Assembly (NCBI GenBank): GCA_001604585.1
Contig: LVBW01000015.1
Coordinates: forward strand, 1 to 36,998
Source: Puniceicoccales bacterium Verruco_02
GTDB taxonomy: Bacteria > Verrucomicrobiota > Verrucomicrobiia > Opitutales > Oceanipulchritudinaceae
Length of the DNA stretch: 36,998 nt
Reading direction: 5' to 3'
In this document: positions 5,411 through 32,294 of the stretch, in pieces
How positions within the stretch are numbered: the first letter of the stretch is position 1
Layout: every line of letters begins with the position of its first letter
The notes under the pieces: model-generated
What the model was told of the DNA's origin: nothing
The model's database searches: none
What the model saw: the letters and a program-made list of their open reading frames with translations, nothing else
Program-made: the position numbers and the translations under genes

Positions 5411-5452
5411 CACCTTGCCCGCAGCAGCATTTACGTGGATACTGAGCGCATT

Positions 5453-8400
5453 ATGTGCTACATTTCTTCGCGCTTGTTGTTGCTAGGCATATTGCCGCTC
5501 ATCGGCTCTGGCTCAATGCAGGCTGACACGGAGTCATTACTACCGCTATCGTATGACCTTCGTAATATCGGTGGGCGTTCCTATATAGGAGCAGTGCGCA
5601 ACCAGGGCGATGCAGGAACCTGCTACGCCTTTGCTGCGTGTGCAATGGGCGAGGCAGCTTACAATCTGCATCACAATTTATATGGCAGTAATGTGGTGGA
5701 CTTTTCAGAGTCCTACATATCATGGAGTATGATGCCTCTTTACGATGGCCTGAATGGCGCAGACGGTGGTGATACAAGGGCGGATTTTCTTCAGGCAATG
5801 GTTGACTACGGTGTGTGCAGCGAGAAGGACTTTCCCTATACTGACGTTGATCCTGGCAAGGAGAACTACGTCTATGATGTGCCTACAGTGAAGTTCAACA
5901 ACTGGAACTTCCTGCCCGCCTACGACGTATATACGATGAAGCAGGCAATGCTGAAGTTCGGCGCCATCGGCGTAGGTATTACGCTGGATGAAGACATATA
6001 CGATTACGATGGAGGTGTGTATATCAACAGTGAAACTTCATCCAATAGATTATGCGAGCTTGATGCGTCGTTTAACCATCTGGTTGCTGGCATAGGCTGG
6101 CAGGACGATGATAGTAGCCCCAGCGGAGGATATTGGATATTGCGAAACTCCTGGGACGCAGACTGGGGAGAAGAGGGATACTTCAATATGGACTATGTAT
6201 CAGCAAGAGCGACGCTGCTACCTATGTACATAAACTATGGAGCATGGGTGGGGGATGATTTTTCTATTACGATCGACGCCGACATACATACCGGCTCAAT
6301 GGAGCTGATTTCCTCTGAAGATGTGGCCTTCGGGGTGTATGAATGGGGCGGCAACAATGCCTCAATCACCAATAACGCCAATGTCGTCGTTGAACACTAT
6401 GCGCAGGGGTATGCGGTGGTGCACGGGCTATTCCTCTGGGCTGGCGAGAACGCATTTCTTACGAACAACGGCTCTGTTCTCAGCTCTGTCAAGGTGGACG
6501 GGGGCATCGCGACAGCATATGGTATATGTTTCCAAGGCAAAGACTTGTTGCTTGCATCCGATTCTCTTGTCGATGTCCGTGCCAGTGCGGATGGCCTGCA
6601 TCGTGCCACAGCCTACGGTGTTCGTTATCACGGGTTCAATACCCTTTCAGAGAGTGGAAGCTTTGTGAATAGGGGAAGTATAAATGCTGAATCAACAGGC
6701 GATGATTCCTGGGCTTATGGTGCCTATGTCATGAACGCTGCAAGCGTGCGCAATGAGGGTAATATCTACGTAAAGGCAGGGAATACCGCTGCTGGAATGC
6801 TTCTGTATGAAGTTAAGGATGCAGTCAATACGGCGCGCATAGAAGCCGTGGCATCGACTGACTCAGCATGTGGGGTGTATGCTCAACACACCAGCCTCGT
6901 CAATGAAGGCCACATTTTGGGAGTGGACGACGAGGGGACTGCCAACACCTTCGGGCTGTATGCGATAGATTCCTATATCGTCAACGCAGGCATCTTGGAA
7001 GCTGCTTCGGCATACGGTGAATCCACTGCTGTGTATCTAATAGAAGGGGCTATAGTCAACGACTATGGAGCCTATATAAGCGCAATTGCGATAGATGGAG
7101 ACTCTTACGGCATAGATGCAGAGAAATCATCCATTGTGAACAATGGAACTATTCGTGCTGAGTTCAATGCTTTGTATGATTGCAATCTCTCTGGTGAGGG
7201 TGTGATTCTCGGCAGTCTCACTGTTAATAACACAGTCATCAGTCCCGGCAATTCGCTCGGAATGATGTATATAGACAGGGATTTCCTGAGTGAGGGAGGT
7301 CTCACCATGAATATTGAGTTCGCCAACGGCGCGTGGGACGAGTTGGTCGTTGGTGGCTCGGCAACAATCGAAGGCACGGACAATGTGGTGAATTTGTTTC
7401 ACGAGGGATATCTTGCCTCTGGAGATTTCCTGTTTATAGAGGCTGGCTCAGGTGGGTATGGAGCCATACAGACTGTCAACACGGCTGCTATGTTCGAGGC
7501 CGCTATACAGGCGCGCACCGATGGTTTCGCCCTGTCCATAGATAGGCACAGCTATTCCGACTTCGCTCTTCAGCAGGAATACAAGGCTATGGGCATTGCG
7601 CTCGACGCTGCCCGACCGCTTGCAGAGGGTGAATTTGCCGCAATGCTCAATCGCTTTGATTCCTACCTGCACGCGGAGGCCGTACAGGCAGGAGTAAGCG
7701 ACCTGTTTCCAACGATGAACAGCGACGCTTCGGCGTCTGCGCTCTCGCTCATGCAGGAAGGAAACGTCTTTGCCGCACGCCATGCGAAAGGTCTGCCAGC
7801 CAAGGCTTTGGAAAGCGATCGCCGCTTCGGCACCTGGTTCAGTGTGATGAACGCAGATGCAGATATAGCAGCTTCTGGTGCTTATGCTAAGCTGAAGGCA
7901 GACACAAAGGGCTACGGAGCCGGTGCCGAATACGCTATTACGAATAATTGGACTTTGGGGGTATCCGCAACGAACGCCAAGCAGAAGCTTAGCCATATTG
8001 GCAGTGCCGACAAGGGCAGTGCGAAGGCGGATCAGGTCTTTGTCAGCGCAATGTGGGACCGCAGGCCCGGTGCCGAGGGGCCATACGCCGGAGTTTCGCT
8101 TGGGCTGGCAAGGCTGGACATGGACAGCAGGCGCATCGTGGGCGAGGAAGCCAACATGCTCGAAGGCGCACACAAGGGCAGCGGTCAGAGTCTCTGGATT
8201 GGTGGCGGCTGGGATCTTAACAACAGCTTTTGGACCACGCGGCCATTTGTTGACTTCCAGTATTCGCGCATGAAAGAGGACGCATATACGGAACGCGGTA
8301 ACGGTGGAGCGGCGCTCTTCTTCGATGAGCGCGATAGCGACTCATTATTGGCAGGCGTAGGCATGAGCGTGTCTGCGAACTTTCGCTTCGGCAGCACCGT

Positions 8401-8659
8401 GATTATACCGGAGCTGCGCATCATGCGCCAGAACGAGCTGCTGGCAGAGCCGCCCCCCCTCATGGGCCGCTTCGCACAAGGGCCGCTGTTCCGGGTGGAG
8501 CAGAGGGATATGTCGGGCTCCCGCACGACGATGAACGCCACCGTGCGGACGATAATTGACGAGCGCGTGATGGCGACAATCGACTTCGAGCGTCGCGAAT
8601 ATGAGCTGAAGGACAGCGCAAGCGACTCTTTGAGCGCAAGGCTGCATCTGCGCTTTTAG
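5453..8659 (+). CDS. Papain-like (C1A) cysteine protease-autotransporter
   Basis: This 1068-residue protein is predicted to cross the inner membrane via a signal peptide (hydrophobic LLLLGILPLIGSG core; likely cleavage after SMQA near residue 24) and then use its own C-terminal barrel. The passenger begins with a papain-fold peptidase: catalytic Cys57 in QGDAGTCYAF, His209 in FNHLVAGIGW and Asn232 in LRNSWDADWGEEGYF, the Cys-His-Asn order of family C1A. Residues of about 285-620 hold short beta repeats of the type VN-x-G-x-I-x-A (NEGNIYV, NEGHILG, NNGTIRA), suggesting a beta helix. From about residue 791 an autotransporter barrel starts (FGTWF...), ending in RLHLRF with the expected terminal Phe. 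ATG 5453 was chosen over an in-frame GTG at 5435 because it places the signal sequence at the terminus. Substrate and surface release are unknown. Confidence 0.85.
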   Translation: MCYISSRLLLLGILPLIGSGSMQADTESLLPLSYDLRNIGGRSYIGAVRNQGDAGTCYAFAACAMGEAAYNLHHNLYGSNVVDFSESYISWSMMPLYDGLNGADGGDTRADFLQAMVDYGVCSEKDFPYTDVDPGKENYVYDVPTVKFNNWNFLPAYDVYTMKQAMLKFGAIGVGITLDEDIYDYDGGVYINSETSSNRLCELDASFNHLVAGIGWQDDDSSPSGGYWILRNSWDADWGEEGYFNMDYVSARATLLPMYINYGAWVGDDFSITIDADIHTGSMELISSEDVAFGVYEWGGNNASITNNANVVVEHYAQGYAVVHGLFLWAGENAFLTNNGSVLSSVKVDGGIATAYGICFQGKDLLLASDSLVDVRASADGLHRATAYGVRYHGFNTLSESGSFVNRGSINAESTGDDSWAYGAYVMNAASVRNEGNIYVKAGNTAAGMLLYEVKDAVNTARIEAVASTDSACGVYAQHTSLVNEGHILGVDDEGTANTFGLYAIDSYIVNAGILEAASAYGESTAVYLIEGAIVNDYGAYISAIAIDGDSYGIDAEKSSIVNNGTIRAEFNALYDCNLSGEGVILGSLTVNNTVISPGNSLGMMYIDRDFLSEGGLTMNIEFANGAWDELVVGGSATIEGTDNVVNLFHEGYLASGDFLFIEAGSGGYGAIQTVNTAAMFEAAIQARTDGFALSIDRHSYSDFALQQEYKAMGIALDAARPLAEGEFAAMLNRFDSYLHAEAVQAGVSDLFPTMNSDASASALSLMQEGNVFAARHAKGLPAKALESDRRFGTWFSVMNADADIAASGAYAKLKADTKGYGAGAEYAITNNWTLGVSATNAKQKLSHIGSADKGSAKADQVFVSAMWDRRPGAEGPYAGVSLGLARLDMDSRRIVGEEANMLEGAHKGSGQSLWIGGGWDLNNSFWTTRPFVDFQYSRMKEDAYTERGNGGAALFFDERDSDSLLAGVGMSVSANFRFGSTVIIPELRIMRQNELLAEPPPLMGRFAQGPLFRVEQRDMSGSRTTMNATVRTIIDERVMATIDFERREYELKDSASDSLSARLHLRF

Positions 8660-11667: not shown

Positions 11668-12828
11668 TCAGTGTTTGTTGGATCGGCGCATCAGTAACAG
11701 TGCCAGCCCCATGAACAGTATATTCGGCCCCCATACAAGTAGTTGCGGATATGCCGATGGGGTTCGCTCGGCCCACCCTGCCATGAAGACGAGGAGGAAG
11801 TACGCCATGCTAAGCGCCAGCGCCAGTGCCATGTTGGCATACGTTTCCTGTCTTCCCACCCGTATCCCAAGCGGGATGCCCAGCATGGCAAGCGACAATA
11901 CGCTGTATGCGAAGGCAAAGTTGCGGCTTATATAATACCCTGTCCTTGTATGCTCGACGAGCGCGGCGTTGCCTTCGGCTGCATCGGCTGCCTCTGCCAT
12001 GCGTCTGGCCGCAGTGGCCCGCGCCTCCAGTAGCTGCTCCAGCGACATGTTAGACAGTTTTGCGGGCTGGGCCTCGGCGCGGCGTGCAGGGAGCAGCTTG
12101 TCGAGCGACATTGCAAAGCTAGTATGTGCGAACTCGGCCTCCACGGACACCTGGCCGAGGTCTTCGACGCCAGCCGCACTGCGGAACTGCCCAGTTGCCT
12201 GGTACACACTCAGGATGAGGCTGTTCTTGTCTAGGTCGTAGCTGATGGTGCCCTCCTTTGCGCGCAGAAACTGGCGCAGTTCCCTGTCCGGCCCCAGAAC
12301 CCAGAGCCAGACATTGCCGAGGCGCTCCCCTTCGCGTTCGCCAACGTAAATCACATAGCCGGGGAAATCCCGCACAAAGCGGCCCGGCACGATGAAACGA
12401 AGGGGTTCCTCGTGGACTATGCCCGAGAGCATCTGCCTGTACTGGGTGCGTGCAATGGGGGCGTACACATTGTTGACATACATGCAGAGGCCGCTTCCCA
12501 GCATGGCTATTAGCAGGATGGGCGAACTAATGCGCCAGATGGATACCCCGGCGCTTTTGAGGGCAACTATTTCGTTGCGGGCGGACATTCGCCCAAGAAC
12601 GAGCAGTATAGCCACAAGCAGGCCCATCGGTGCTGCGTAGGACAGGGTGAAGGGCAGCAGAAGGGCCATCATGCGAAATGCCGTGATGGCGTCGAGTTGA
12701 CCGGAGGCGAGCCGTTCGAGCACGTCGCGCATGGCATTGGCCGTCACCAAGACAAAGGTGAATAGAGCCATGCCAGAGAGCGTCGCAGTGGCAACGGACG
12801 AAAATATGTATCTATGCAGAAGCTTCAC
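11668..12828 (-). CDS. lptF: LptF/LptG-family lipopolysaccharide export permease
   Basis: A 386-residue inner-membrane permease of the YjgP/YjgQ (LptF/LptG) family. These proteins form the transmembrane part of the LptB2FG ABC transporter that extracts LPS from the inner membrane. The N-terminus (MKLLHRYIFSSVATATLSG) and the cytoplasmic-loop region GRMSARNEIVALKSAGVS are family hallmarks. There are three membrane segments in the first 110 or so residues, a soluble periplasmic region of about 180 residues, then three C-terminal segments. Choice of F over G is tentative because the paralogue is not in the window. The start is a GTG overlapping the exosortase stop codon (GTGA), indicating translational coupling. 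Confidence 0.87.
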   Translation of the reverse strand: MKLLHRYIFSSVATATLSGMALFTFVLVTANAMRDVLERLASGQLDAITAFRMMALLLPFTLSYAAPMGLLVAILLVLGRMSARNEIVALKSAGVSIWRISSPILLIAMLGSGLCMYVNNVYAPIARTQYRQMLSGIVHEEPLRFIVPGRFVRDFPGYVIYVGEREGERLGNVWLWVLGPDRELRQFLRAKEGTISYDLDKNSLILSVYQATGQFRSAAGVEDLGQVSVEAEFAHTSFAMSLDKLLPARRAEAQPAKLSNMSLEQLLEARATAARRMAEAADAAEGNAALVEHTRTGYYISRNFAFAYSVLSLAMLGIPLGIRVGRQETYANMALALALSMAYFLLVFMAGWAERTPSAYPQLLVWGPNILFMGLALLLMRRSNKH

Positions 12829-13859
12829 GCCTGTCCCTGCTCCTCTTTGGCAGTATTGTCATCGCCCTTGGCCTGCGCATTCTGCGAGGGTTCAGCTTCG
12901 GCAAGCTCTGGCAACTTGAAGTTAAATACCGGCAAGAGGCATAGAAGGAGTATAACCGTAACGCCCAGTACAGCGTAACCTGTTACATCGTGGACAGTGC
13001 CCGCGATAGCCTCAGAGCCGTAAGCGTAAGCCCAGCTTGTAAGGAAGAGACCGCGGGCAAGATTGGTTGCGAAGGCGAGCAGCAGGGCCGTCCCCACCAT
13101 CAGCACCTTCTTCCATAGCTTGTCCAGAAACACGGCGGCCAGGAAAGAGCCAGCAAAGAGGCAGCCGGTGAGCGAGCGGATGCCCGAGCAGGCCTCTTCG
13201 ACGCCGACCTCGCCCTTGGGCAGTATGAGCACATTGCCGCGGCGCTCGATGAGCATCCCCAGCATGTCGAACACACCGAACACCACCGCAGTCACCTTGT
13301 TGAGTAGAAAAACGCTGATCATGCTTTCGACGGCGCTCATCAAGGGGGCGGAGATTATCCAGACAAGGGCCGGGAAGAGCAGCATCCCGAAAAAGGCTAA
13401 CCTGCCTTTGTTGTCGAGGTAGGCACCGTCCGTCCTTCTGTCGGAAAATACCAGTGCAGAGGATAGCACTATGCCTGCAAAGCCGTTCGTCATTAAGAAA
13501 GAGCCGGGCAGGCTGATACCCGTGTAGCCGCGGTAAAGCACGCCGAGAACGAAAACGAGCACCGAGCCTGTAAGGCAGATGCCGCCAATGGCGTCCAGCC
13601 AGCGCTTTGGGCCTTGGGGTGAAGATTCGGGCAGGGGCGAGGGGTTGAAAATGCGCAATATGGCTGGCCAGCGATCGTAGAGGACGAATGCGCAGAATAC
13701 GGGCACGAGGTAGCCGAAGCTGTAATCCTCCTTGATGGACCACCAGTGGGAGAGGTCATACACTATCCACGCGGCCAGCAGAAGGCAGGCTATGGAGGCC
13801 AGTCTCAGTTGAAGGGGCAGTCGCGCAAAGCTCATTGCCTCTGAGAAATAGATTGCCAT
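12825..13859 (-). CDS. xrt: Exosortase
   Basis: A polytopic inner-membrane transpeptidase of the exosortase/archaeosortase family, 344 residues from the chosen ATG at 13859. Exosortases cleave C-terminal sorting signals (PEP-CTERM type) of secreted proteins. The catalytic triad is visible: Cys224 in EEACSGIRS, Arg269 in NLARGLFLT and His290 in GTVHDVTGY. There are about eight hydrophobic segments. The open frame continues upstream through the tRNA-Pro gene, giving a spurious peptide, so the start must be at 13859 or at the second Met at 13835. The stop overlaps the lptF start by four bases. No PEP-CTERM substrate or EPS cluster is seen in this window. Confidence 0.88.
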   Translation of the reverse strand: MAIYFSEAMSFARLPLQLRLASIACLLLAAWIVYDLSHWWSIKEDYSFGYLVPVFCAFVLYDRWPAILRIFNPSPLPESSPQGPKRWLDAIGGICLTGSVLVFVLGVLYRGYTGISLPGSFLMTNGFAGIVLSSALVFSDRRTDGAYLDNKGRLAFFGMLLFPALVWIISAPLMSAVESMISVFLLNKVTAVVFGVFDMLGMLIERRGNVLILPKGEVGVEEACSGIRSLTGCLFAGSFLAAVFLDKLWKKVLMVGTALLLAFATNLARGLFLTSWAYAYGSEAIAGTVHDVTGYAVLGVTVILLLCLLPVFNFKLPELAEAEPSQNAQAKGDDNTAKEEQGQA

Positions 13860-13960
13860 GAGGCGACTATCAAGGCGCGAAACCGGGAATCGTAGCCTCT
13901 CCTCTCTTCGCAGGTTCCCATTGCGCGTTGTGCGTTGGGCTGAAGCGGACCAAATTGAAA

Positions 13961-14038
13961 TGGTCGGGGCGACCGGATTCGAACCGACGACTTCTTGCTC
14001 CCAAAGCAAGCGCTCTAGCCAGACTGAGCTACGCCCCG
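13961..14038 (-). tRNA. tRNA-Pro (anticodon TGG), CCA encoded
   Basis: Read on the minus strand from 14038. The acceptor stem CGGGGCG pairs with CGCCCCG. The D arm is GCTCAGTCTGGCTAGAGC, the anticodon arm CTTGC-TTTGGGA-GCAAG gives anticodon TGG, and the T loop is TTCGAAT. The discriminator A is followed by a genomically encoded CCA (13963-13961). The T stem includes two wobble pairs. It lies about 100 bases upstream of the exosortase gene on the same strand. Confidence 0.96.
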
Positions 14039-14182
14039 ATTTGTTGATGGACAGGGGTTTACGCATACGCATGGCCACCTGTTGCCTCTGAAAGGTCTGG
14101 ACTCTACCGTTTCGGCTAAGGAGTGCAAAGGAAAAATGTCACGCTTGGGAGTGGGCGGGTGCCATTTGGGCAAGAGCGCAAT

Positions 14183-18175: not shown

Positions 18176-19783
18176 CTAGTGCTTGAAACCGTTCTTCGAG
18201 GTGCTATTGAATGCCAGAGTCCTTTGCTTTTGGCGCGCTGGCAGAGTGGCTTTTTCAGGTCTGTTCGCGGCCAGAGGTCTGCGCTCCTGCATTATAGGTT
18301 CGCCTAGGCCGATAAGCTGCCTGCCTTCGCCAAGCATTGCCTGCCTGCTCCGGCGCTGGCTCTTTTCGACCAAGGCTACAAGATCGCCCACAGTCTCGGC
18401 AAGAGTGTCGGCATGTGCGTTCAGCTCCTCGGACGCCGAGGCCGTCTCCTCGGCGTTGCTAGCGTTACTTTGCGTCACCTTGTCCATTTCGGACACTGCG
18501 AGGGTAAGCTGCGATATACCGCGGTCCTGCTCCTGAGTGGCGCTTGCTATCTCGCTTACAAGGTGATTCATCTCGCGGGCCTTGACTACGATAGTGTCGA
18601 GGCTGCCGGCCACCTTTGCTGATAGCTGCACGCCCTGTTCGCTACTCTTCACTGCGCCCTCGATTTTGACCGATGTTTCCTTGGCGGAGTTGGCGCTACG
18701 CTGGGCAAGGTTGCGCACTTCTTCGGCCACTATGGCGAAGCCTGCACCGGCCTCCCCGGCGCGCGCGGCCTCCACTGCTGCATTGAGCGCAAGAATGTTG
18801 GTTTGGAAGGCTATTTCGTCGATAGTCTTGATGATTTGTGAAATTCCTGCCGAGGATGTCTTGATAGCATCCATGGCCAGTTGCATCTGTCGCATCTGGT
18901 CAGCGCTTTGATCGGCTGCCGAGCGCATCTGGTCGGCCAGTTCCTTCGCCTGTGCTGCGCTCTGTGCGTTGCCGGCCGTCATAGATGACATTTCCTCAAG
19001 CGAAGAGCTTGTCTCTTCGAGACTTGCAGCCTGTTCGCTAGCCCCTTCGGCGAGCATGTTGCTGGCCGAGGCAACTTGCGAAGAAGCCGCCGCTACCTGG
19101 GCCGCCCCCTCATCTATCGTGCTTATGGCCTTCTTAAGCGCCGCCGTTATCTTCCTTGTGATGATTGTGCAGGCTGTGAACGCAATGGCCAAGGCCGCTA
19201 TCAGAGCAACCGTTATGCTGTAATTGGCTCCGCTCGCGCTCATGGCTACGGATTCGCCACGGTCCTTGCTGCGCTTAATGTTGAAGTCAACATATTCGTC
19301 CAGTATGGCACGGTATGTTCTGTATTCAGGAAGAAGCGTGGTGTTGATGTAGTCAATAGCCTCCGCCTTGCTCTTGTTTGTAGATATATCAAATAGCTTT
19401 ATGCGAATATCTCCATAGCGGGCGGCGGAAGCGTTCAGCTTGTCGAATAGGGCCTTGTCCTCGGCGTCGCTAATCATCGTAGTGTACTGTTTGTACAATT
19501 CTTGGTTGGCCTTGTATAATATGTCATATCTATTGGCTATATCGGCCATGCCATCAGCGTCAGGAGTGCGAATATGTCTTTCTACATACGCATACCCCCA
19601 TGTGATGTTATTTTTGATCTGGAGCATCAGGACTGTTCCGGGCATCTCCTTCTCTATCAAATGCTTGGTTTCTATGTTGATAGCGTTGGTCGATATTAGC
19701 CCAATAGCTCCTATCGAGAGGGTGAGTGAGGTTAATATGGCAAAGCCCAATGTGAGGCGTTTTTGTATAGTAAGATTGCTCAT
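18176..19783 (-). CDS. Methyl-accepting chemotaxis protein
   Basis: A 535-residue transmembrane chemoreceptor. TM1 is about residues 11-33, followed by a periplasmic helical sensor of about 155 residues resembling the four-helix-bundle MCP type, then TM2 (about 186-208, ITVALIAALAIAFTACTII). The cytoplasmic signalling domain contains the highly conserved hairpin tip IDEIAFQTNILALNAAVEAARAG, then GFAIVAEEVRNLAQRSA. Such receptors signal to CheA through CheW. The HAMP region after TM2 is short and poorly conserved. The basic tail after about residue 465 is not part of the standard domain and has no visible NWETF-like CheR/CheB tether. ATG 19783 fits the N-terminal membrane segment. It is the only receptor gene in the window. 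Confidence 0.95.
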   Translation of the reverse strand: MSNLTIQKRLTLGFAILTSLTLSIGAIGLISTNAINIETKHLIEKEMPGTVLMLQIKNNITWGYAYVERHIRTPDADGMADIANRYDILYKANQELYKQYTTMISDAEDKALFDKLNASAARYGDIRIKLFDISTNKSKAEAIDYINTTLLPEYRTYRAILDEYVDFNIKRSKDRGESVAMSASGANYSITVALIAALAIAFTACTIITRKITAALKKAISTIDEGAAQVAAASSQVASASNMLAEGASEQAASLEETSSSLEEMSSMTAGNAQSAAQAKELADQMRSAADQSADQMRQMQLAMDAIKTSSAGISQIIKTIDEIAFQTNILALNAAVEAARAGEAGAGFAIVAEEVRNLAQRSANSAKETSVKIEGAVKSSEQGVQLSAKVAGSLDTIVVKAREMNHLVSEIASATQEQDRGISQLTLAVSEMDKVTQSNASNAEETASASEELNAHADTLAETVGDLVALVEKSQRRSRQAMLGEGRQLIGLGEPIMQERRPLAANRPEKATLPARQKQRTLAFNSTSKNGFKH

Positions 19784-21765: not shown

Positions 21766-21914
21766 TAGCTATTGAGACTAGTACAAGGCTGCCCTAGAGC
21801 ACAAGCATTGAGAATCAGGCCTGCACGATGTTATATCGGCATCATAGCGGAATGTGTTGCTTTATAGCTGGAGGAACAAGGTGGGCGTCTCCATGCTCTT
21901 GCAGACATCGAGCA

Positions 21915-22772
21915 ATGAAGGTAATCAGGGCAAAGAGTGCAGGTTTCTGCTGGGGTGTGGAGCGGGCGATAGGCATTGCGCGCAACCATGCCGACGCCGG
22001 AAAGCGCAATGTGTATTCCGACGGGCCGCTAATCCACAACCGCCAGATGATGGAAAAGCTGGAGGCCGAGGGCATACACGAGGTGGGCGACTATCAGAGC
22101 CGGGGCGCTCTTGCGCTCGACAGCGAGGGCGTGCTCGTTGTGCGTGCGCACGGCATTTCGCCAGAGCGCAGGGAGTATCTAAAGAGCCTGGGGCTGGAAT
22201 TTCGCGACGCCACCTGCCCGGACGTGGGCATCGTGGCCGGGAAAATCCGCCGCATGGCCCGCAACGGCTACTCAACCATCATATTCGGCGACCACGATCA
22301 CCCCGAGGTAATAGGCCTTCTCGGTTACACCGAAGGGCGGGGCCACCCCGTGGAGAGCGAGGCCGACATAGACGCCCTGCCAGAGCTGGGCGAGAAGGTC
22401 TGCATGGTGTCGCAAACCACGATGTTTACCGACGATTTTGCCAAGCTCTCTGCCTACGTACGCTCCAAATACCCGGAACTAGTCGTGTTCGACACCATCT
22501 GCGGGGCCACCAAGGCGCGCCAGAGCGACATCGAGGTGCTCGTTCGCGAGGGAGCACAGGCAATCGTCGTCATCGGCGGGCACCATTCTGCCAATACCCG
22601 CAAGCTGGCGACTCTGGCCGAAAAGAGCGGCCTGCCCACTTTTCACATAGAGACGGCGGCCGAGTTGGACTCCGGAGCCTTCGCAGGCTTTGAAAGGGTG
22701 GGGGTGACAGCCGGTGCCTCGACGCCGGACTTTCTCATCGACGCGGTGTGCGAAAAGCTTGCCGCGATGTAG
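21915..22772 (+). CDS. ispH: 4-hydroxy-3-methylbut-2-enyl diphosphate reductase
   Basis: IspH performs the last step of the MEP isoprenoid pathway, converting HMBPP to IPP and DMAPP with an iron-sulfur cluster. The 285-residue protein starts MKVIRAKSAGFCWGVERA with cluster ligand Cys12. The other ligands are in RDATCPDVG and DTICGATKARQ. Substrate-binding histidines lie in GPLIHN and VRAHGIS, the catalytic-loop Glu in GDHDHPEVIG, and VSQTTMF is conserved. The frame is open upstream to 21828, but the ATG at 21915 gives the family's N-terminus, where Cys12 follows the first strand. It has its own transcription unit, divergent from glgA. Confidence 0.96.
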   Translation: MKVIRAKSAGFCWGVERAIGIARNHADAGKRNVYSDGPLIHNRQMMEKLEAEGIHEVGDYQSRGALALDSEGVLVVRAHGISPERREYLKSLGLEFRDATCPDVGIVAGKIRRMARNGYSTIIFGDHDHPEVIGLLGYTEGRGHPVESEADIDALPELGEKVCMVSQTTMFTDDFAKLSAYVRSKYPELVVFDTICGATKARQSDIEVLVREGAQAIVVIGGHHSANTRKLATLAEKSGLPTFHIETAAELDSGAFAGFERVGVTAGASTPDFLIDAVCEKLAAM

Positions 22773-22857: not shown

Positions 22858-22884
22858 TAAGTGTCATATTGCACCTGCCGATAA
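22858..22884 (+). promoter_or_regulatory. Sigma-28 (FliA)-type promoter of the lipoprotein gene
   Basis: TAAG (22858-22861), 15 bases, then GCCGATAA (22877-22884). The -10 element equals the enterobacterial FliA consensus in all eight positions, and the -35 core matches TAAA in three of four at exactly consensus spacing. Transcription would start near 22891, just before the ATG at 22899, giving a very short leader. Confidence 0.6.
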
Positions 22885-22898
22885 AGAGCCGTCGGAAC

Positions 22899-23579
22899 AT
22901 GTCCGCCCGCATTTCAATATTCGCGTTCGTCATCTGCTCCCTGCTATCGCTGGGGGGCTGTTTTTCCACGAGCGGAAAGGGCGACACTCCGCGCGAGCAG
23001 TTCCGCTCCACATATCAGCCGCGCAACATAAGTAGCGATGCTGAGCTGCCGGTGACGCTGCGCCGCGTAGTGCTGCTCCCAGCCTGTTGGGACGCCGATC
23101 CGGATTCGGACTTTCTGCCCTACCTGGACAGCCTGCTCAACCTGTCCCTTCAGCGAAGCGGGGCCTTCGAGATTGTGCCAATTGGCAGGGCACAGATGCA
23201 CAAGCTCTTCGGCAAGGAGCAGTTCTCCTCTGCGGGCATCCTGCCGGACAATCTCTTGCCCGACATTATGAATCTCTACGCCGCCGACGGCATCGTGTTT
23301 GTCGATGTCACGGTGAACCGCCCATACAGGCCGCTGGCGCTGGGGCTTCGCGCCCGCATTCTGGACATACGCACAATGAAGGTCGTGTGGAGCGTGGATG
23401 CGCTCTTCGACAGTTCTGACCCAGCCGTGGCCAGAGCCGCATCAGCCTATGCCCGGCGCAGCACTTTCAACCCACACCCGGTGGACGTCAGCTCGGGCAT
23501 CCTCCAGAGTCCCAAGGCATTTGCGAACTTCGCGGTCGATACCCTCTTTGCCACACTGCCGCTGCGCTCAAATGAGTAG
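22899..23579 (+). CDS. Predicted lipoprotein under a sigma-28-type promoter
   Basis: A 226-residue secreted lipoprotein of unknown function. The signal sequence MSARISIFAFVICSLLSLGGC has a clean lipobox (LGGC, lipidated Cys21). The mature part, from VTLRRVVLLPACWDADPDSDFLPYLDSLL through ALGLRARILDIRTMKVVWSVDALFD, alternates strands and helices. The pattern (RVVLLP..., ...SGAFEIVPIGR..., DGIVFVDVTVNRPY..., LRARILDIRTMKVVWS) recalls periplasmic lipoproteins with a CsgG/LpoB-like or TolB-N-like fold, but no family is claimed. The frame opens at TTG 22869, which lies upstream of the predicted promoter -10 box; ATG 22899 is therefore preferred. The FlgM-like gene follows 121 bases downstream with a second promoter of the same type, so a flagellar envelope role is a reasonable inference. 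Confidence 0.75.
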   Translation: MSARISIFAFVICSLLSLGGCFSTSGKGDTPREQFRSTYQPRNISSDAELPVTLRRVVLLPACWDADPDSDFLPYLDSLLNLSLQRSGAFEIVPIGRAQMHKLFGKEQFSSAGILPDNLLPDIMNLYAADGIVFVDVTVNRPYRPLALGLRARILDIRTMKVVWSVDALFDSSDPAVARAASAYARRSTFNPHPVDVSSGILQSPKAFANFAVDTLFATLPLRSNE

Positions 23580-23650
23580 TGCCAAGAGCATGGGCCAAGG
23601 ATTCTTTTTCACGTCGCTGAGAAATAGCTGAAGTATTTTTCGTTCACGGT

Positions 23651-23677
23651 TAAAGTTGCCTCCTTTCGGGACGATGT
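23651..23677 (+). promoter_or_regulatory. Sigma-28 (FliA)-type promoter of the FlgM-like gene
   Basis: TAAAGTT (23651-23657) matches seven of the eight -35 consensus bases (TAAAGTTT). After exactly 15 bases from TAAA comes GACGATGT (23670-23677), five of eight matches to GCCGATAA. The predicted start near 23684 lies downstream of the two possible ATG codons (23656, 23674) but upstream of the GTG at 23701, which helps to choose the start codon. Confidence 0.5.
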
Positions 23678-23700
23678 TCTCCTCGTCCAAGGATATAACC

Positions 23701-24027
23701 GTGAATATCGACCCACTAAAAAGACAGCTTCCGACCGGCCTTGAAGGCGTGACGAGGCGTCATACCTCCGCTGGCGAGAAGCAGAGCACTTCCGCCGGAC
23801 AGGACGCGGTGCTGGACAACATCAACCGCCAGAACCTGCTGGAGCGCATCCGGGAAATTCCCGAGGCGCGCAGCGAAGTTGTCGAGATAGGGCGCCGTCT
23901 GGCCGAAGACCCGAACTATCCCTCCGACGAGCTTGTGGACAAGTTGGCCAACGCTCTTGCGGATCTGGAACCGGGTTGGCTGGACGCCTTGGGAACTGAG
24001 GAGGACTTGGGCAATGAACCCGCATAG
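23701..24027 (+). CDS. flgM: FlgM-like anti-sigma-28 factor
   Basis: A 108-residue, mostly hydrophilic protein. FlgM binds sigma-28 in the cytoplasm and is exported through the flagellum once the hook is complete. The start MNIDPLKRQ is like many FlgM N-termini, the middle is probably disordered, and the C-terminal segment has two predicted helices (NLLERIREIPEARSEVVEIG, then RRLAEDPNYPSDELVDKLANAL), comparable with the sigma-binding helices and the G-x-Y-x-(x)-D pattern of FlgM. GTG 23701 was chosen because AAGGA lies seven bases upstream (23689-23693) and the predicted promoter overlaps both earlier ATGs. Assignment rests on weak sequence similarity plus the promoter; another small flagellar regulator is possible. 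Confidence 0.55.
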   Translation: MNIDPLKRQLPTGLEGVTRRHTSAGEKQSTSAGQDAVLDNINRQNLLERIREIPEARSEVVEIGRRLAEDPNYPSDELVDKLANALADLEPGWLDALGTEEDLGNEPA

Positions 24028-24190
24028 TGTACAGCCCATCAAGGTAAGCATGTTGCGCCTGCCCGCCTTTCGCGACGTTAGCATCACAGGCCTAGTGCGC
24101 GGTGTGTCTGCAGGGCAAAAGCTGGACAGCGCAGACACGGCCCCCGGAATATGGAAGGCCCGCCTGCTGACTGCCCGCTTCTGCCTCTGA
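24014..24190 (+). CDS. Possible small protein overlapping the flgM-like gene
   Basis: A 58-codon ORF starting at ATG 24014, inside the last codons of the FlgM-like gene (14-base overlap) and ending TGA 24190. The product, MNPHSVQPIKVSMLRLPAF..., is slightly basic, with no signal peptide, membrane segment or known motif. The overlap would suit translational coupling, the place where flgN stands in some flagellar operons. It is much shorter than FlgN and not similar by eye. It may be non-coding. Confidence 0.3.
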   Translation: MNPHSVQPIKVSMLRLPAFRDVSITGLVRGVSAGQKLDSADTAPGIWKARLLTARFCL

Positions 24191-24219: not shown

Positions 24220-26181
24220 TTAGAGCGGGAATGCGAATACCGTTGCGCTTAGCGGAGCAACCATCAGCCCTTCTGCGGCATTGATCGCGTCGGTTCTATC
24301 GATGTCCACGGCGCGGTCTTTGCCAGGTTCGTTGCGGCAATATTCGCTAGGTGCAGAGACTGCCCAGCGCGTTCCCATGCCTCGGACTGTCGCCCCCTTG
24401 AGTGCCAGCTTGATGGACTTTGCCTCCAAGGTCGGGTTAACTATGCCCACTGTCAGCGTCTTGCCGTCTTCGGACAGGGCCGCCACCACGTCCAGCGGGC
24501 CAAAATCCGCATCAATGAGCAAGGGGATGCTGCCGAAGTGCCTGCGGTAAAGCTCCAGCACAAGCCCCGTCGTTTCCATCTGTGCTGCCGTGCGGCTGGT
24601 CTTGATGGCACCGATTACGTTCACTGTCTGCGCGTAGAAGGCCATCTGGACTATGTCGCTCTGGCGGAAATACTCATGCAGACCCTCTGCTATGCCCAGC
24701 GCGTCCGCCATGTCGTAGGCGCAGCCAAGCTCCCCGTAACTGTATTCGCGGTGCCAGTAGTTCCACTCGTCCATCGTGATCGGGATTACGCGCCCCTTCA
24801 GGTTTGGCAAAGAGGCCTGAAGCCTGCGGTGCCCCTGAGCAGTCTCACGAATAGCTGTCTTCATCTGGACCACTGCCTCTTCCAGAGGGAAGCGCGACGA
24901 TTCCTCCCAAGGCAGGCGACCCCGATAGAAGTGCTCGGAGATAAGGTGCATGTAGTCGGCACAGTTCATGAGCATCCCCGTGGACCAGCAATGGCCGCTT
25001 TTTGCCTGTTCGGGGTCACTGTTGGTGTTGATTATCCCTAGTGCGCCCACGGCCGCCAGTTCTATGGATGGATCCTGTTCGAGCATGGCCTCGGCCACTA
25101 GGTTGTGCTTAATCTGATACTGGGAAAGGCTCATGAAGCCCAGCTGCCAAGTGCCGAACATCTCGTTGCCAACGCACCAATACTTGACCTTGTAAGGCTC
25201 TGGGTTCCCGTGGTTTGCGCGCCATGAACCGGCGAGAGTGTCGCTAGTGCCGTTGCAGTACTGCACCCATTGCGCGGCGCAGTAAGCGTCCCCAAAGCCA
25301 GTGTTGACTGCGATCATAGGCTCTGTACCGACGATGCGGCAGAAGGCAAGGAACTCGTCCGTTCCAAAGTCGTTGTGCTCCACGCCCGTCCATGCCGGGT
25401 TCTTGCGCGGCGGCCTGCGGTCGCGATCTCCTATGCCGTCGTGCCAGTCGTAGCCGCTTGTGAAGTTGCCCCCCGGCCAGCGGTATATTGTCCCGCCAAG
25501 CTCCTTGAGCAGTTCCAATGTATCCGCGCGCATTCCCTCCACGTTGTCCGCAGGCATGAGCGAGAGCGTGCCAATGACAAGTGCTCCCTTTTCTGCGAGA
25601 ATCTCCAGTGTGGCCTTGTCGCTCGTGGAGGGCGCTGTGAAGGCAAAGGAGAGCTTCGTAAATTCGTTCGTTGTGCACTCAAGAGCCACGGCCACATCCT
25701 TGCCGCCGCTACTCAAGCTGATGCGAAGGCGGGCAGCATCCTCGCTCTTGACCCAGATGTAGCCCGTATATTGCTTTCCTGCCACTACTCCTAGGTCGTG
25801 CTGGCGGATTCCCGAGCCTGAGCCAAGGCGCAGCGACTGCTTTCCTACGAAAGCATCCTTCTTAATCATCTCCACGCCCTTGGCTGGGCCGACGATTTCC
25901 CAAGGCGATGCGCCCACAACAGGGTAGTCCGTGTCCGTAAGGGAAGTGTAGGGGGCGTAATTCTCCGTGACCTCGAAGAAGAATTTGCGGTCTTCGAGCA
26001 TCTCGGCCCATATCCCGCCGTAGATGCAGCGGCCTAAGTGCTCGATGAACTGACCGTAGATGTAGGGGTTGATCGGAGCGGCGCTGCTCGAAGAGTCGAT
26101 ATTTAGTTGTGCAGTCTGTGCTGCTAGTGGGTTGACTTGTGTCATGGCCAAAAGGGCTGTGATCAATGGGCGGAGTCTCAT
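24220..26181 (-). CDS. Secreted alpha-L-arabinofuranosidase, GH51
   Basis: A 653-residue exported glycoside hydrolase that removes terminal arabinofuranose from arabinan or arabinoxylan. The signal peptide MRLRPLITALLAMTQVNPLAAQ is followed by a mature start with NPYIYGQFIEHLGRCIYGGIW, typical of GH51. A carbohydrate-binding-like beta region (about 95-215) leads into the TIM barrel (GTIYRWPGGNFTSGYDWHDGIGDRDRRP). The acid/base is Glu340 in KYWCVGNEMFG and the nucleophile Glu472 in ITMDEWNYWHREY; a C-terminal beta domain ends the protein. ATG 26181 has AAAGGA seven bases upstream; an in-frame TTG at 26199 lies upstream of this site and is less likely. No transporter or other arabinan genes are adjacent, so it appears a stand-alone degradative gene. 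Confidence 0.93.
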   Translation of the reverse strand: MRLRPLITALLAMTQVNPLAAQTAQLNIDSSSSAAPINPYIYGQFIEHLGRCIYGGIWAEMLEDRKFFFEVTENYAPYTSLTDTDYPVVGASPWEIVGPAKGVEMIKKDAFVGKQSLRLGSGSGIRQHDLGVVAGKQYTGYIWVKSEDAARLRISLSSGGKDVAVALECTTNEFTKLSFAFTAPSTSDKATLEILAEKGALVIGTLSLMPADNVEGMRADTLELLKELGGTIYRWPGGNFTSGYDWHDGIGDRDRRPPRKNPAWTGVEHNDFGTDEFLAFCRIVGTEPMIAVNTGFGDAYCAAQWVQYCNGTSDTLAGSWRANHGNPEPYKVKYWCVGNEMFGTWQLGFMSLSQYQIKHNLVAEAMLEQDPSIELAAVGALGIINTNSDPEQAKSGHCWSTGMLMNCADYMHLISEHFYRGRLPWEESSRFPLEEAVVQMKTAIRETAQGHRRLQASLPNLKGRVIPITMDEWNYWHREYSYGELGCAYDMADALGIAEGLHEYFRQSDIVQMAFYAQTVNVIGAIKTSRTAAQMETTGLVLELYRRHFGSIPLLIDADFGPLDVVAALSEDGKTLTVGIVNPTLEAKSIKLALKGATVRGMGTRWAVSAPSEYCRNEPGKDRAVDIDRTDAINAAEGLMVAPLSATVFAFPL

Positions 26182-26284
26182 GCGGAGTTCCTTTACCAAT
26201 GGGGGTTGTTACAAGGGGGTGTGCTGCATGACTGTGTCTTGGGCTTGCAGTCGGGCACCTGCATCCTTCATTGTTACGCGCAGA

Positions 26285-28143: not shown

Positions 28144-28650
28144 ATGGCCGAATCACACAAATGTCAGATTTGCGGCAAGCCCGCCACCGTGCATCTTACT
28201 CAGATTAGCGGGGGCAAGATACACAAGTTCGACCTTTGCGACGAGTGTGCCCACGCCAAGGGCGTGACAGACCCTGACGGCTATTCCGTTAGCGAGGCCA
28301 ATGCTGGGAAGCCCGTGGCGCACAAACACCCCGCTGGCGAGAGCATCGTATGCGGGGTGTGCGGCATTACAGCCAAGGACTTCAAGAAGATGGGCCACTT
28401 TGGCTGCCCGTCCTGTTACGAGTATTTCGGCCCGATAATAACCCCCATGCTGGAGGGTATGCACCGCGACATCGAGCACCGTGGCAGGCAACCGGCACGC
28501 TCTTTGGCACGGCTTGCGCTAAGGAAGAAAATCACCCTTTTGGAAAGTGTGCTCTCCGACGCCGTGGCGGAGGAGCGCTTCGAGGAGGCAGCGCGCCTGC
28601 GCGACGAGCTTGGCGCGTTGAAAGACCAGCTTCAGGATCAGATAAGTTGA
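28144..28650 (+). CDS. mcsA: McsA, zinc-binding activator of protein-arginine kinase
   Basis: McsA stimulates the arginine kinase McsB and, in Bacillus, joins it in stress proteolysis by ClpC. The 168-residue protein has four C-x-x-C pairs in its first half (CQIC, CDEC, CGVC, CPSC), the paired zinc fingers typical of McsA, and a C-terminal UVR domain (LLESVLSDAVAEERFEEAARLRDELGALKD). ATG 28144 opens the frame directly before CQIC. Its last bases overlap the start codon of mcsB. A short perfect palindrome (GCGAA-A-TTCGC, 28078-28088) lies 55 bases upstream and could be an operator. No CtsR-type box was recognised. Confidence 0.94.
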   Translation: MAESHKCQICGKPATVHLTQISGGKIHKFDLCDECAHAKGVTDPDGYSVSEANAGKPVAHKHPAGESIVCGVCGITAKDFKKMGHFGCPSCYEYFGPIITPMLEGMHRDIEHRGRQPARSLARLALRKKITLLESVLSDAVAEERFEEAARLRDELGALKDQLQDQIS

Positions 28651-29750
28651 GCACCGCAAAAACAAGGATAGACGCCATACTGGACGCCGGAGAGCCTATG
28701 CTCTGTGGCGAGGCCGAGGCCTGCCCGGTGGTCATCACTACGCGCATCCGCCTGGCCAGAAACCTTGCCGGGCACCCATTCCCCGGATGGGCCAAGGAAG
28801 CCCAGCGCCGCACTGTGCTCGACCTTTGTCTTGGTGCGCTTGGCGGGGTGCCGCAGCTTCGCGGGGCTGTGACTCTGGCTATGGACACCCTGAGCCAGAC
28901 CGAGAAGCTCATACTTGCCGAGAGCCACCTCATAAGCCGCGAGCTTATGGAGTCGCGCCCCTTTGCGGGCATTGTGACAAGGCCCGAAGCGGGCTGCTCC
29001 ATCATGGTGAACGAGGAGGACCACCTGCGCATTCAGCTAATGCAGGGCGGGTTGGCCCTTGAAGAGCTGTGGGAAAGAGCATCGGAGCTTGATCAGTCGA
29101 TGGAGGGCCGCCTCGACTACGCCTTTTCCCCCCGCCTTGGCTACCTCACGTCCTGCCCAACGAACCTTGGCACAGGCATCCGCGCCTCTGCAATGATGCA
29201 CCTGCCCGGCCTTGTGATGAAAAACCACATAGACCAGCTCGTGCGCATGGTCTCGCAGCTTGGCATTGCCGTGCGCGGACATCTGGGTGAGGGCAGCGCG
29301 GCAAAGGGCAGCATTTTCCAAATTTCCAACCAGCAGACCCTAGGCGAGGACGAGGAGAGCATCATACGCCGCCTGCACAACGTAATCGACGCCATTACTG
29401 AGCAGGAGCTTAACGCCCGCCAGTGCCTCTTGGAGGAGAACGAGCCGCAGCTAATGGACAAAATCGGCCGGGCGAGGGGAGTTCTTCAGAACGGGCATCT
29501 TTTAAGCTCAGATGAGGCAATGGACATTCTTTCGCTGATTCGTCTCGCGGCGGATCTTGGTCTGGTCCCCAGCCAGTGGCGGGGCAGGGCGGACAGGCTC
29601 ATGATAGAGGCCCAGCCGGGGCATATGCAGCACCGGGTGGCGGCTGAGTTGGGCGCTACGCGCAGAGATGTTCTCCGCGCCGTACAGATGAGGGAAGAGT
29701 TTGCACAACTGCCAGCTCTTACCGAAGTTACAGGGGTGGCAAATTTGTAG
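28647..29750 (+). CDS. mcsB: Protein-arginine kinase McsB
   Basis: McsB phosphorylates arginine side chains, which in Firmicutes marks proteins for ClpCP. The 367-residue protein shows the phosphagen-kinase fold: VVITTRIRLARNLAGHPFP at the N-terminus, MVNEEDHLRIQLM, CPTNLGTGIRASAMMHLPGL (active-site Cys region), and a C-terminal RGVLQNGHLLSSDEAMDILSLIR region. The start is TTG 28647, in TTGA overlapping the mcsA stop. No in-frame ATG occurs until after the segment that should precede the first strand, so the TTG with coupling is the best start. ClpC follows after 12 bases. Confidence 0.94.
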   Translation: MSTAKTRIDAILDAGEPMLCGEAEACPVVITTRIRLARNLAGHPFPGWAKEAQRRTVLDLCLGALGGVPQLRGAVTLAMDTLSQTEKLILAESHLISRELMESRPFAGIVTRPEAGCSIMVNEEDHLRIQLMQGGLALEELWERASELDQSMEGRLDYAFSPRLGYLTSCPTNLGTGIRASAMMHLPGLVMKNHIDQLVRMVSQLGIAVRGHLGEGSAAKGSIFQISNQQTLGEDEESIIRRLHNVIDAITEQELNARQCLLEENEPQLMDKIGRARGVLQNGHLLSSDEAMDILSLIRLAADLGLVPSQWRGRADRLMIEAQPGHMQHRVAAELGATRRDVLRAVQMREEFAQLPALTEVTGVANL

Positions 29751-29762
29751 GAGGAAGCAGTC

Positions 29763-32294
29763 ATGTCTATGGAACCGATGAACAATTTCACACCGCGTGC
29801 CCAGCAGGTGCTGGCGCTCGCCCGCAAGGAGGCAGACCGTTTCCACCACAATTACGTTGGAACGGAGCACCTCTTGCTCGGCCTCATTCACCTTGGACAG
29901 GGCGTGGCGGTGAATGTACTTCAGAAGATGGGCCTCAGTCTGGAAACAGTCCGCGCCGCTGTCGAAAAGCAGGTGGGCACCGGGCCGCAGACCAAGCCCG
30001 TGGGCAACATCCCATACACCCCCCGCGTCAAGAAAGTTCTTGCGCTGGCGGGCAAGGAAGCGCGCTCGCTTAACCACAGCTACGTGGGCACCGAGCACAT
30101 ACTGCTCGGCCTGCTCCGCGAGGGCGAGGGCGTGGCTGCCCGCGTGCTGCGCAGTCTGGAAGTGGACATTGAGCGTTGCCGCAACGAGATACGCGCAGAG
30201 TTGGACCCGAACTTCTCCGAGGAACCCGGTGCACAGCCCGACGAGGGCATGTCGCCCGGCCCGATGGGTTCCGGTCCCAGCCCGATGGGCATGGGAGGCC
30301 CAGGCGAAGAGCGAGGCAAGGACATGAAGACGCCCGCCCTGAAGGCTTTCGGGCGCGACCTTACCGAGCTTGCCCGCAATGGCGAAATGGATCCTGTCAT
30401 CGGCCGCAAGGACGAGATACGCCGCGTAGTTCAGATTCTTTGCCGTCGCACCAAAAACAACCCTGTCCTCATCGGCGAGGCCGGCGTTGGCAAGACGGCC
30501 ATTGTCGAGGGCCTGGCGCAGGAGATAGCCAACGGCCTTGTACCCGAGATACTTGCGGACAAAAAGCTCATCACCCTTGACCTCGCCCTCATGGTGGCGG
30601 GGACGAAGTACCGCGGCCAGTTCGAGGAACGCATCAAGGCCGTGATGGACGAGATACGCCGCGCCAAGAACGTCATAGTCTTTATCGACGAGCTGCACAC
30701 AATCGTCGGCGCAGGCGCCGCCGAGGGCGCAATGGATGCCTCGAACATTTTCAAACCCGCCCTTTCGCGAGGAGAGCTTCAGTGCATAGGCGCAACCACC
30801 CTTGCCGAGTACCGCAAGTACATCGAAAAGGACAGCGCCCTGGACCGTCGCTTCCAGAGCGTGATGGTCGAGGCCCCGAGCGTGGAGGACTCGATAAAAA
30901 TTCTTAAAGGCATAGCGCCCAAGTACGAGGAGCATCACAAGGTGGCCTACACGCCTGCCGCGCTGGAGGCAGCCGTTTTCCTGTCGGAACGTTACATTAC
31001 GTCGCGCTTTTTGCCGGACAAGGCAATTGACGTTCTGGACGAATCCGGCTCGCGGGTCCGCATCGAGTCTCTGCGTCGTCCGCCCGAGATTGAGGATCTG
31101 GCGGGCGAGATAGAGCAGATCTGCGCCTCCAAAGAGGAAGCCATTGCACAGCAGCGTTTTGAGGACGCGGCCCGCCTTCGCGACCGCGAGAAGCGCCTGC
31201 GTGCCCAGCGCGAGGAGATGATCGAGGACTGGAAGCGCAGCCGCGAGGAGCAGCGCGTGACAGTCGATGTCGAGGACATGATGCAGGTTGTTTCCGGCTG
31301 GACGGGCATCCCGCTCTTCCGCATGGAGCAGAAGGAGAGCGAAAAACTGCTCAACCTCGAAAAAGAGCTTCAGGACAAGGTCATCGGGCAGAACGAGGCC
31401 ACGGTGGCCATTTCCCGTGCCCTGCGCCGCAGCCGTGCGGACCTGAAAGATCCGCGCCGCCCGATAGGTTCCTTCATGTTCATGGGGCCGACGGGCGTGG
31501 GGAAGACGCACCTTGCAAAGATACTGGCCGAGACGATGTTCGGAGATCAGGACTCGATGGTGGCAATCGACATGAGCGAGTACATGGAGAAATTCTCCGT
31601 GTCGCGGCTCATCGGCTCGCCTCCCGGCTATGTGGGCTACGAGGAGGGCGGCCAGCTTACAGAGGCCGTTCGTCGCAAGCCCTACTGCGTGGTGCTCTTT
31701 GACGAAATAGAAAAGGCGCATCCGGACGTGGTGCAGCTCCTCCTTCAGGTGCTCGAAGACGGCCGCCTAACCGACAGCCTCGGCCGTACGGTGGACTTCC
31801 GCAACACGATCATAATCATGACAAGCAACGTCGGCGCACACATCCTTCAGAAGGGCAATGTGCTCGGCTTTGGCGACTCTGACAACGATGCCAGCTTCGA
31901 GGCGCTCAAGAACCGCATTATGGACGAGGCCAAGAAGGTCTTCAAGCCAGAGTTCCTGAACCGCATTGGCACGATGGTTGTGTTCCGCCAGCTCCTGAAG
32001 CAGGATCTTGTCCGCATCATCGACCTTGAGATTTCCAAACTCGCCAAGCGTCTGCGCGATCGCGACATGCAGCTCAACGTGGACCTACTGGTGAAGGAAT
32101 ACATCATCGAAAAGGGCTACGACGAGAAGTTCGGCGCACGTCCGCTCCGCAGAGCTGTGGAGCAGTATCTCGAGGATCCGCTTGCGGAATCCATCCTGCG
32201 TGGCGAGCTGGAGAAGGGCAGGTCCATCCATGTCAGCATAGAGGACGGCAGGCCCGTCTTCAGGCAGGACCAGCCAGCGTCCAGCATGTCATAA
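29763..32294 (+). CDS. clpC: ATP-dependent Clp protease ATP-binding subunit ClpC
   Basis: An AAA+ unfoldase of 843 residues that feeds proteins to ClpP. Order: two Clp-N repeats (about 8-75 and 85-145, each with a YVGTEHxLLGL motif), a Gly/Pro/Met linker, AAA-1 with Walker [10 protein letters not shown] and Walker B VFIDELHT, a UVR-containing middle domain ([17 protein letters not shown], about 450-500), AAA-2 with GPTGVGKTH and [11 protein letters not shown], and a C-terminal D2-small domain ([21 protein letters not shown]). ATG 29763 is preceded by a strong AGGAGGA (29749-29755). As the third gene of mcsA-mcsB-clpC it is the likely target machine for arginine-phosphorylated substrates (inferred from Firmicutes). 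No clpP lies nearby. Confidence 0.97.

Follow-up and report, generated by a model that had tools for sequence, protein, structure and literature searches.

The Vibrio H ring is composed of FlgT, FlgO and FlgP, of which FlgO and FlgP are outer-membrane lipoproteins, and cells that lose it are reported to have flagella that are fragile, are easily lost or lie in the periplasm (PMC6504787, PMC7990780). In Vibrio the genes of the H ring belong to the sigma-54 Class III, with the stators, MotX, most flagellins and FlgM placed in the FliA-dependent Class IV (excerpt of PMC6504787). PelC, which serves the export of Pel polysaccharide, is another lipoprotein of interest here. Twelve copies of it form a periplasmic ring (excerpt of PMC12141448). 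Our literature searches, judged by titles and the starts of abstracts, found no study of the Verrucomicrobiota flagellar regulon (FlgM, FliA, sigma-28), nor any report from this phylum of an FlgM or flagellar lipoprotein like those described below.

The window, a stretch of 36,998 nucleotides, is contig C32 of the 2.7 Mb genome (101 contigs) of an Opitutales-type member of the Verrucomicrobiota. It contains a gene for a 226 aa lipoprotein with a PelC/FlgT-like predicted fold and from a flagellum-linked family (22899..23579, plus strand, ATG start), followed by a gene for a 108 aa protein which we annotate as a divergent flgM, encoding the anti-sigma-28 factor (23701..24027, plus strand, GTG start; a separate mechanical ORF at 23933–24190 accounts for the end at 24190 given in the first-pass annotation, the flgM stop being at 24027). 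Window genes around the pair include ispH (21828–22772), a chemoreceptor gene (18176–19783, minus strand), an arabinofuranosidase gene (24220–26199, minus strand) and glgA. We think it fairly likely that the lipoprotein is a flagellar collar protein of the outer membrane, made late under FliA control, which is paired with its FlgM and would form a ring. Like the Vibrio H-ring proteins it is flagellum-linked and of envelope type, and its predicted fold is like a FlgT domain, but it is a single-domain protein whose gene has a sigma-28-type site, in contrast to the sigma-54 Class III H-ring genes of Vibrio (excerpt of PMC6504787).

The window also has several features of separate interest. A 1074 aa fusion of a papain-family protease and an autotransporter beta-domain (5435–8659) adjoins a cheA-like gene (2783–5380), an exosortase (EpsH family) gene (12825–14078) lies beside an LptF/LptG gene, and genes for a UVR-motif protein, an ATP:guanido phosphotransferase and a ClpC-like ATPase are found in a row (28144–32294), which we take to be an mcsA–mcsB–clpC-like cluster for protein arginine phosphorylation outside the Firmicutes.

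Sigma-28-type sites in the window and in relatives

The E. coli-type consensus for sigma-28 (FliA) is TAAA-N15-GCCGATAA. The two promoter strings reported in the first-pass annotation were located exactly where it had placed them, each with a TAAA-like -35 element, a 15 nt spacer and a GCCGATAA-like -10 element. The lipoprotein promoter (22858..22884, plus strand; hereafter site 1) consists of TAAG at 22858–22861, N15 and GCCGATAA at 22877–22884, and is found 22 nt before the ATG at 22899; the flgM promoter (23651..23677, plus strand; site 2) consists of TAAA at 23651–23654, N15 and GACGATGT at 23670–23677, and is found 31 nt before the GTG at 23701. Site 1 has one mismatch to the consensus and is the sole match in the window at this level or better. 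Site 2 has three mismatches and is among 32 window matches with up to three, where 17.7 are expected from shuffles, and by sequence alone it is therefore not above chance. A post hoc pattern devised from both sites, TAAR-N15-GNCGATR, matches the window twice, in each case at one of these sites (0.17 expected). Transcription from a sigma-28 promoter is taken to start about 7 nt downstream of the -10 element and, by arithmetic on this spacing, the lipoprotein transcript would have a leader of only about 4–18 nt.

The genome-wide scan proposed in the first-pass annotation gave a divided result. The exact consensus with a spacer of N14–16 has no match in the whole of the host genome, TAAR-N15-GNCGATA matches nine times compared to seven for a control pattern and is thus not enriched, and the motif is absent from the one host flagellin promoter examined, which has a sigma-54-like look instead; on the other hand, the site recurs before flgM and before the own-family lipoprotein genes in relatives. 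It is this conservation in relatives, and not genome-wide enrichment, that makes the window sites stand out.

We scored relatives by the best TAAA/G-N15-GCCGATAA match in the 130 nt before each start, with a threshold of 9 of 12, and used as controls 312 mechanically picked ORFs, which may include spurious ones and of which 33 reach the threshold. Sites scoring at least 9 were found upstream of flgM in 13/22 cases (Fisher 2.5e-7 against the controls), with an exact TAAA-N15-GCCGATAA at locus L147; this set covers 22 of 25 flgM genes, leaving out three flgM-like genes spotted later (L050, L051 and L149), and excludes L043 and L046, which are duplicates of L062 and L063. Such sites are also found upstream of fliD (6/13, p 0.002) and before the lipoprotein gene in six of the seven flagellated members of the window's own family (1.5e-5), and before none of 15 lipoprotein genes lying directly behind fliD. 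A site-1-type element is found 19–33 nt before the lipoprotein start in L061, L062 and L063, where it was first spotted by eye and scored afterwards, and also in L056 and L057. In the own family, the sites before flgM fit the E. coli-type consensus poorly (2/6 at 9 or above, p 0.13), and a TAAA-N15-element some 30 nt before the flgM GTG is kept in the window, L061, L062 and L063. In 12 other genomes of the order the exact sequence TAAA-N15-GCCGATA occurs 27 times, compared to 16 times for a control pattern, and nine of the 27 matches lie no more than 5 kb from the lipoprotein gene, including sites before fliD and flgM. The counts of 6/7 in the own family and 0/15 behind fliD indicate that the lipoprotein gene is preceded by a sigma-28-type site of its own precisely in those cases in which the fliD operon has been lost.

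These searches also revealed exact sigma-28-type sites before the genes of two similar proteins of unknown function in L187 and L202 (G079:C3:6585 and G183:C30:45908), both of which start like MSxRLLSxLxxIExAL and whose gene is a candidate for a further FliA-dependent gene, and a second FlgM-like match with an exact TAAA-N15-GCCGATA upstream at G046:C37:7453–7718.

A lipoprotein family in flagellated genomes

The window lipoprotein has no match to any Pfam or NCBIfam family. Its signal peptide and lipobox (LSLGGC; 22899..22961, plus strand) end with the lipidated Cys21 (codon 22959–22961), which is followed by Phe at residue +2. The cysteine is invariant in 17/17 aligned relatives, none of which have Asp at the next position. 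In E. coli, an Asp after the lipobox Cys decides against the outer membrane, and by this rule the lipoprotein points to an outer-membrane location.

Profile searches of 223 genomes of the order found the lipoprotein in 51 and flagellin in 61, with 49 genomes having both, two having the lipoprotein only (G120 and G219), 12 having flagellin only and 160 having neither (Fisher 3e-35, though the kinship of the genomes means that their independence is overstated). FliD was found in 32 of the 223 genomes, all 32 of which are lipoprotein-positive, and in 30 of these fliD and the lipoprotein gene are on one contig within 10 kb of each other. The FlgM-like gene is directly downstream of the lipoprotein gene in 25 of 27 loci examined, and in the two exceptions, G028 and G009, the FlgM-like match is elsewhere in the genome. 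In relatives with fliD the typical gene order is fliD–lipoprotein–flgM–fliS, plus a further small gene of about 125–140 residues, and in the window's own family, in which fliD was not found, the lipoprotein–flgM pair stands alone. The placement of the lipoprotein in the flagellar regulon made in the first-pass annotation finds support in this tracking of flagellin and fliD across the order and in the adjacency to flgM, together with the sites in the own family described above. Since the family is found almost only in flagellated members of the order, the lipoprotein probably belongs to their flagellum as a component that has gone unrecognised. We note that G214 and G154 have three lipoprotein matches each as well as multiple FliD matches, and appear to have duplicated flagellar clusters.

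The structure prediction that the first-pass annotation had called for was also carried out, and gave an AlphaFold2 model (5-sequence alignment) with a mean pLDDT of 81.5, residues 18–36 being below 50. This was compared with known structures using Foldseek and VIA-align, and among the matches listed PelC is the top structural match (Z 12.3, rmsd 3.0, 144 aligned, about 15% identity), with FlgT (3w1e; Z 10.5, rmsd 3.2, 134 aligned), a Chlamydia protein (Z 10.3, rmsd 4.5), an LPHT-ring chain (8z5n; Z 9.4, rmsd 3.4, 139 aligned), CsgG (Z 9.0, rmsd 4.9, 128 aligned), GNA1162 (Z 8.8, rmsd 7.4), TolB (Z about 8) and LpoB (Z 7.3) also recorded. A PelC/FlgT-type fold is thus predicted, and a role as a motor part is plausible and consistent with this model, but PelC/CsgG/TolB-type folds serve many systems and the predicted fold is no proof of a ring. 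The lipoprotein resembles PelC in combining this fold with an invariant lipobox Cys, and differs from it in not being encoded in a pel operon, the neighbours being ispH, glgA and the arabinofuranosidase gene in the window and fliD, flgM and fliS in relatives. With an E threshold of 1, neither the FlgO nor the FlgT Pfam model matches any of the 17 members, and the likeness is therefore one of fold and setting, and not of membership in the H-ring families. With E likewise limited to 1, 9/17 members match the GNA1162-like family (PF05643) weakly (best 2.9e-5), with the window lipoprotein itself having none; the lipoprotein differs from this family in its flagellar gene context, and our literature search found no paper in which GNA1162 appears together with the term 'flagellar'. 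The sheath, which the first-pass annotation had offered as another possible site of action, received no specific support, as there is only a weak HpaA-type fold similarity (Z 6.5–7.3).

The FlgM-like protein and the sigma factors of the host

An alignment of 22 members of the FlgM-like family shows a core of the form P-[DE]-x-R ... D-P-x-Y-P. When the profile of this alignment was compared with all PDB sequences, the top match was FlgM (9wsf_B, E 7.6e-5, positions 18–92, the next best match having E 0.12), and the match spans the C-terminal half, which is the sigma-28-binding part. Each of the two FlgM models, PF04316 of Pfam (best 3.4e-6) and TIGR03824 of NCBIfam (best 2.6e-6), is matched by three of the 22 members at E up to 10. 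The FlgM assignment of the first-pass annotation therefore holds at the family level, while the profile check which it suggested fails for the window protein on its own: this matches neither PF04316 nor TIGR03824, and there is no PF04316 match anywhere in the host genome. The window protein has no Pfam match and its only NCBIfam match is a weak one to BrxE; at 17 bits this falls far below the cut-off of 80, and we rejected an identity as a BREX protein.

We read the 108-residue protein as a true but diverged FlgM, with FliA binding as its candidate function. It is small like FlgM, with a poorly predicted N-terminal half and helices after it (32–51, 54–69 and 76–87) in a structure model of low confidence (pLDDT 60.1, 5-row alignment), and has a sigma-28-type promoter, in keeping with the Class IV expression of Vibrio FlgM (excerpt of PMC6504787). 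It differs from FlgM in its family-specific core, in being missed, as far as the window protein is concerned, by the FlgM models of Pfam and NCBIfam, and in its gene order, with a gene for a lipoprotein of outer-membrane type next to it and, in relatives, fliD and fliS as well.

The host has both FliA and flagellar export genes. The first-pass annotation would have been undermined by a genome without fliA, and we found the flagellar fliA on contig C40 flanked by flhF and motA/motB, with flhA and flhB further upstream. Five Flagellin_N matches were also found, and no FliD_N match in the host or its two genus mates. The host fliA has a TAAG-N15-TCCGATAC element 29 nt before its ATG, which was not seen before fliA of G001 or G002 (the choice of start in G002 is doubtful), and fliA upstream regions show no enrichment of sigma-28 sites across 18 genomes (MWU p 0.11). 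Three FliA/WhiG-type sigma genes in the host are above the curated cut-off; the two besides the flagellar fliA are at C95:54938–55621 and C24:12669–13346, and the C95 gene adjoins, by eye, a PP2C-like gene and a response regulator, which suggests another regulated pathway.

Most of 30 flagellin upstream regions have no clear sigma-28 site. In five own-family genomes (L111, L113, L114, L115 and L116) the sequence TGGCA[CT]-N7-GCT is found about 105–120 nt before the flagellin start, in a scan that excluded L132, L138 and L139 because of unreliable starts; these sigma-54-like elements score 7–9 of 11, and 17% of controls also reach 7. They suggest that the filament genes may be controlled by one sigma factor and the late genes by another. 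The host flagellin gene on C101 (L111:6981–9388, minus strand) is followed by FlbT (2.2e-37) and FlaF (1.4e-32), which are flagellin partners in alphaproteobacteria, and the presence of this alphaproteobacterial-type arrangement in a Verrucomicrobiota genome with no FliD match may possibly reflect the exchange of a filament module.

Alternative explanations and a proposed mechanism

The lipoprotein could belong to the flagellar regulon and still be a general envelope lipoprotein, similar to GNA1162, LpoB or TolB and acting in peptidoglycan or outer-membrane maintenance, and not a motor part. The weak GNA1162-like matches in 9/17 members and the predicted similarity to TolB and LpoB would agree with this, but we consider it unlikely, if not negligibly so, given that the family is almost exclusive to flagellated genomes (49/51) and that its gene is placed by fliD and flgM. 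Another view is that both sites are chance matches, the pair being transcribed by sigma-70 with gene order as the only link to flagella. That the host shows no enrichment of the motif, that site 2 alone is not above chance and that the leaders are very short all speak for chance, yet the element is at a similar distance in 6/7 flagellated family members, 15/15 lipoprotein genes behind fliD are without a site scoring at least 9, and consensus sites precede flgM in the wider order, making this explanation improbable.

We give still less credence to two further views. A FliA/WhiG-type paralogue (C95 or C24), and not the flagellar FliA, might read the promoters and bind the FlgM-like protein, as might be argued from the three sigma genes of this type that pass the cut-off in the host and from a paralogue in G010 (C10:157343) located some 4 kb from the lipoprotein–flgM pair. 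Against this, the lipoprotein-positive genomes G019, G027, G028, G029 and G034 show just one close FliA-type match, and both of the single-FliA genomes which were scored have sites upstream of flgM (L054 in G019 and L048 in G029). It is just as improbable that the 108-residue protein is an unrelated small protein which shares the flagellar gene order: the failure of the window protein to match any FlgM model and the lack of a PF04316 match in its genome would allow this, but FlgM comes first over the C-terminal half when the family profile is compared with the PDB, and three members match FlgM models directly.

Returning to the lipoprotein as a late collar protein, the mechanism we propose builds on the observed association with flagella, the order of the genes, the promoter elements conserved in relatives, the similarity to FlgM at the family level and the predicted fold. 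Both genes would be late (FliA/sigma-28) flagellar genes with promoters read by FliA. FlgM would keep FliA from acting as long as the hook is unfinished and would then exit via the flagellum, and the brake would be reset because the flgM gene would itself be FliA-dependent. The lipoprotein, as a FliA-dependent envelope protein, would be added once the hook extends beyond the outer membrane, and several copies would then probably ring the periplasmic face of this membrane around the rod and LP ring, where they may strengthen the passage of the motor through the outer membrane or the stator scaffold. We infer that a late collar which steadies the rod or stator scaffold is more likely than a role in penetrating the outer membrane, because the lipoprotein would be made with FlgM and, in relatives, with fliD after hook completion. 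We count against this reading the 12 flagellin-positive genomes without the lipoprotein and the two lipoprotein-positive genomes without flagellin, the lack of enrichment of the motif in the host genome and of sites in the fliA regions, the poor scores of the own-family flgM sites, the flagellin regions with no clear sigma-28 site or with a sigma-54-like element, the failure of the window proteins to match any Pfam family, and the very short predicted leaders.

These comparisons support the chain of claims in the first-pass annotation, which runs from FliA-type promoters and an FlgM to a lipoprotein in the flagellar regulon. More tentatively, and with the balance of probability slightly against it as a whole, we suggest that flagellated Opitutales-type Verrucomicrobiota build their motor with an outer-membrane collar of their own, formed by a lipoprotein of PelC/FlgT fold which is made late under FliA/FlgM as an analogue of the H ring, and that, as the adjacent fliD disappeared, the lipoprotein gene stayed under late control by gaining a sigma-28 promoter of its own. 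The presence of such a site before the lipoprotein gene where fliD has gone would then be a readable promoter gain that holds a gene in its regulon. For the flagella of the Verrucomicrobiota our findings provide a candidate for a structural component as well as an FlgM that had been hidden, and annotators could recognise FlgM where the standard models miss it. If the suggestion is true, there would be an H-ring analogue in the Verrucomicrobiota, a phylum for which the titles and abstract starts retrieved pointed to no study of the flagellar regulon.
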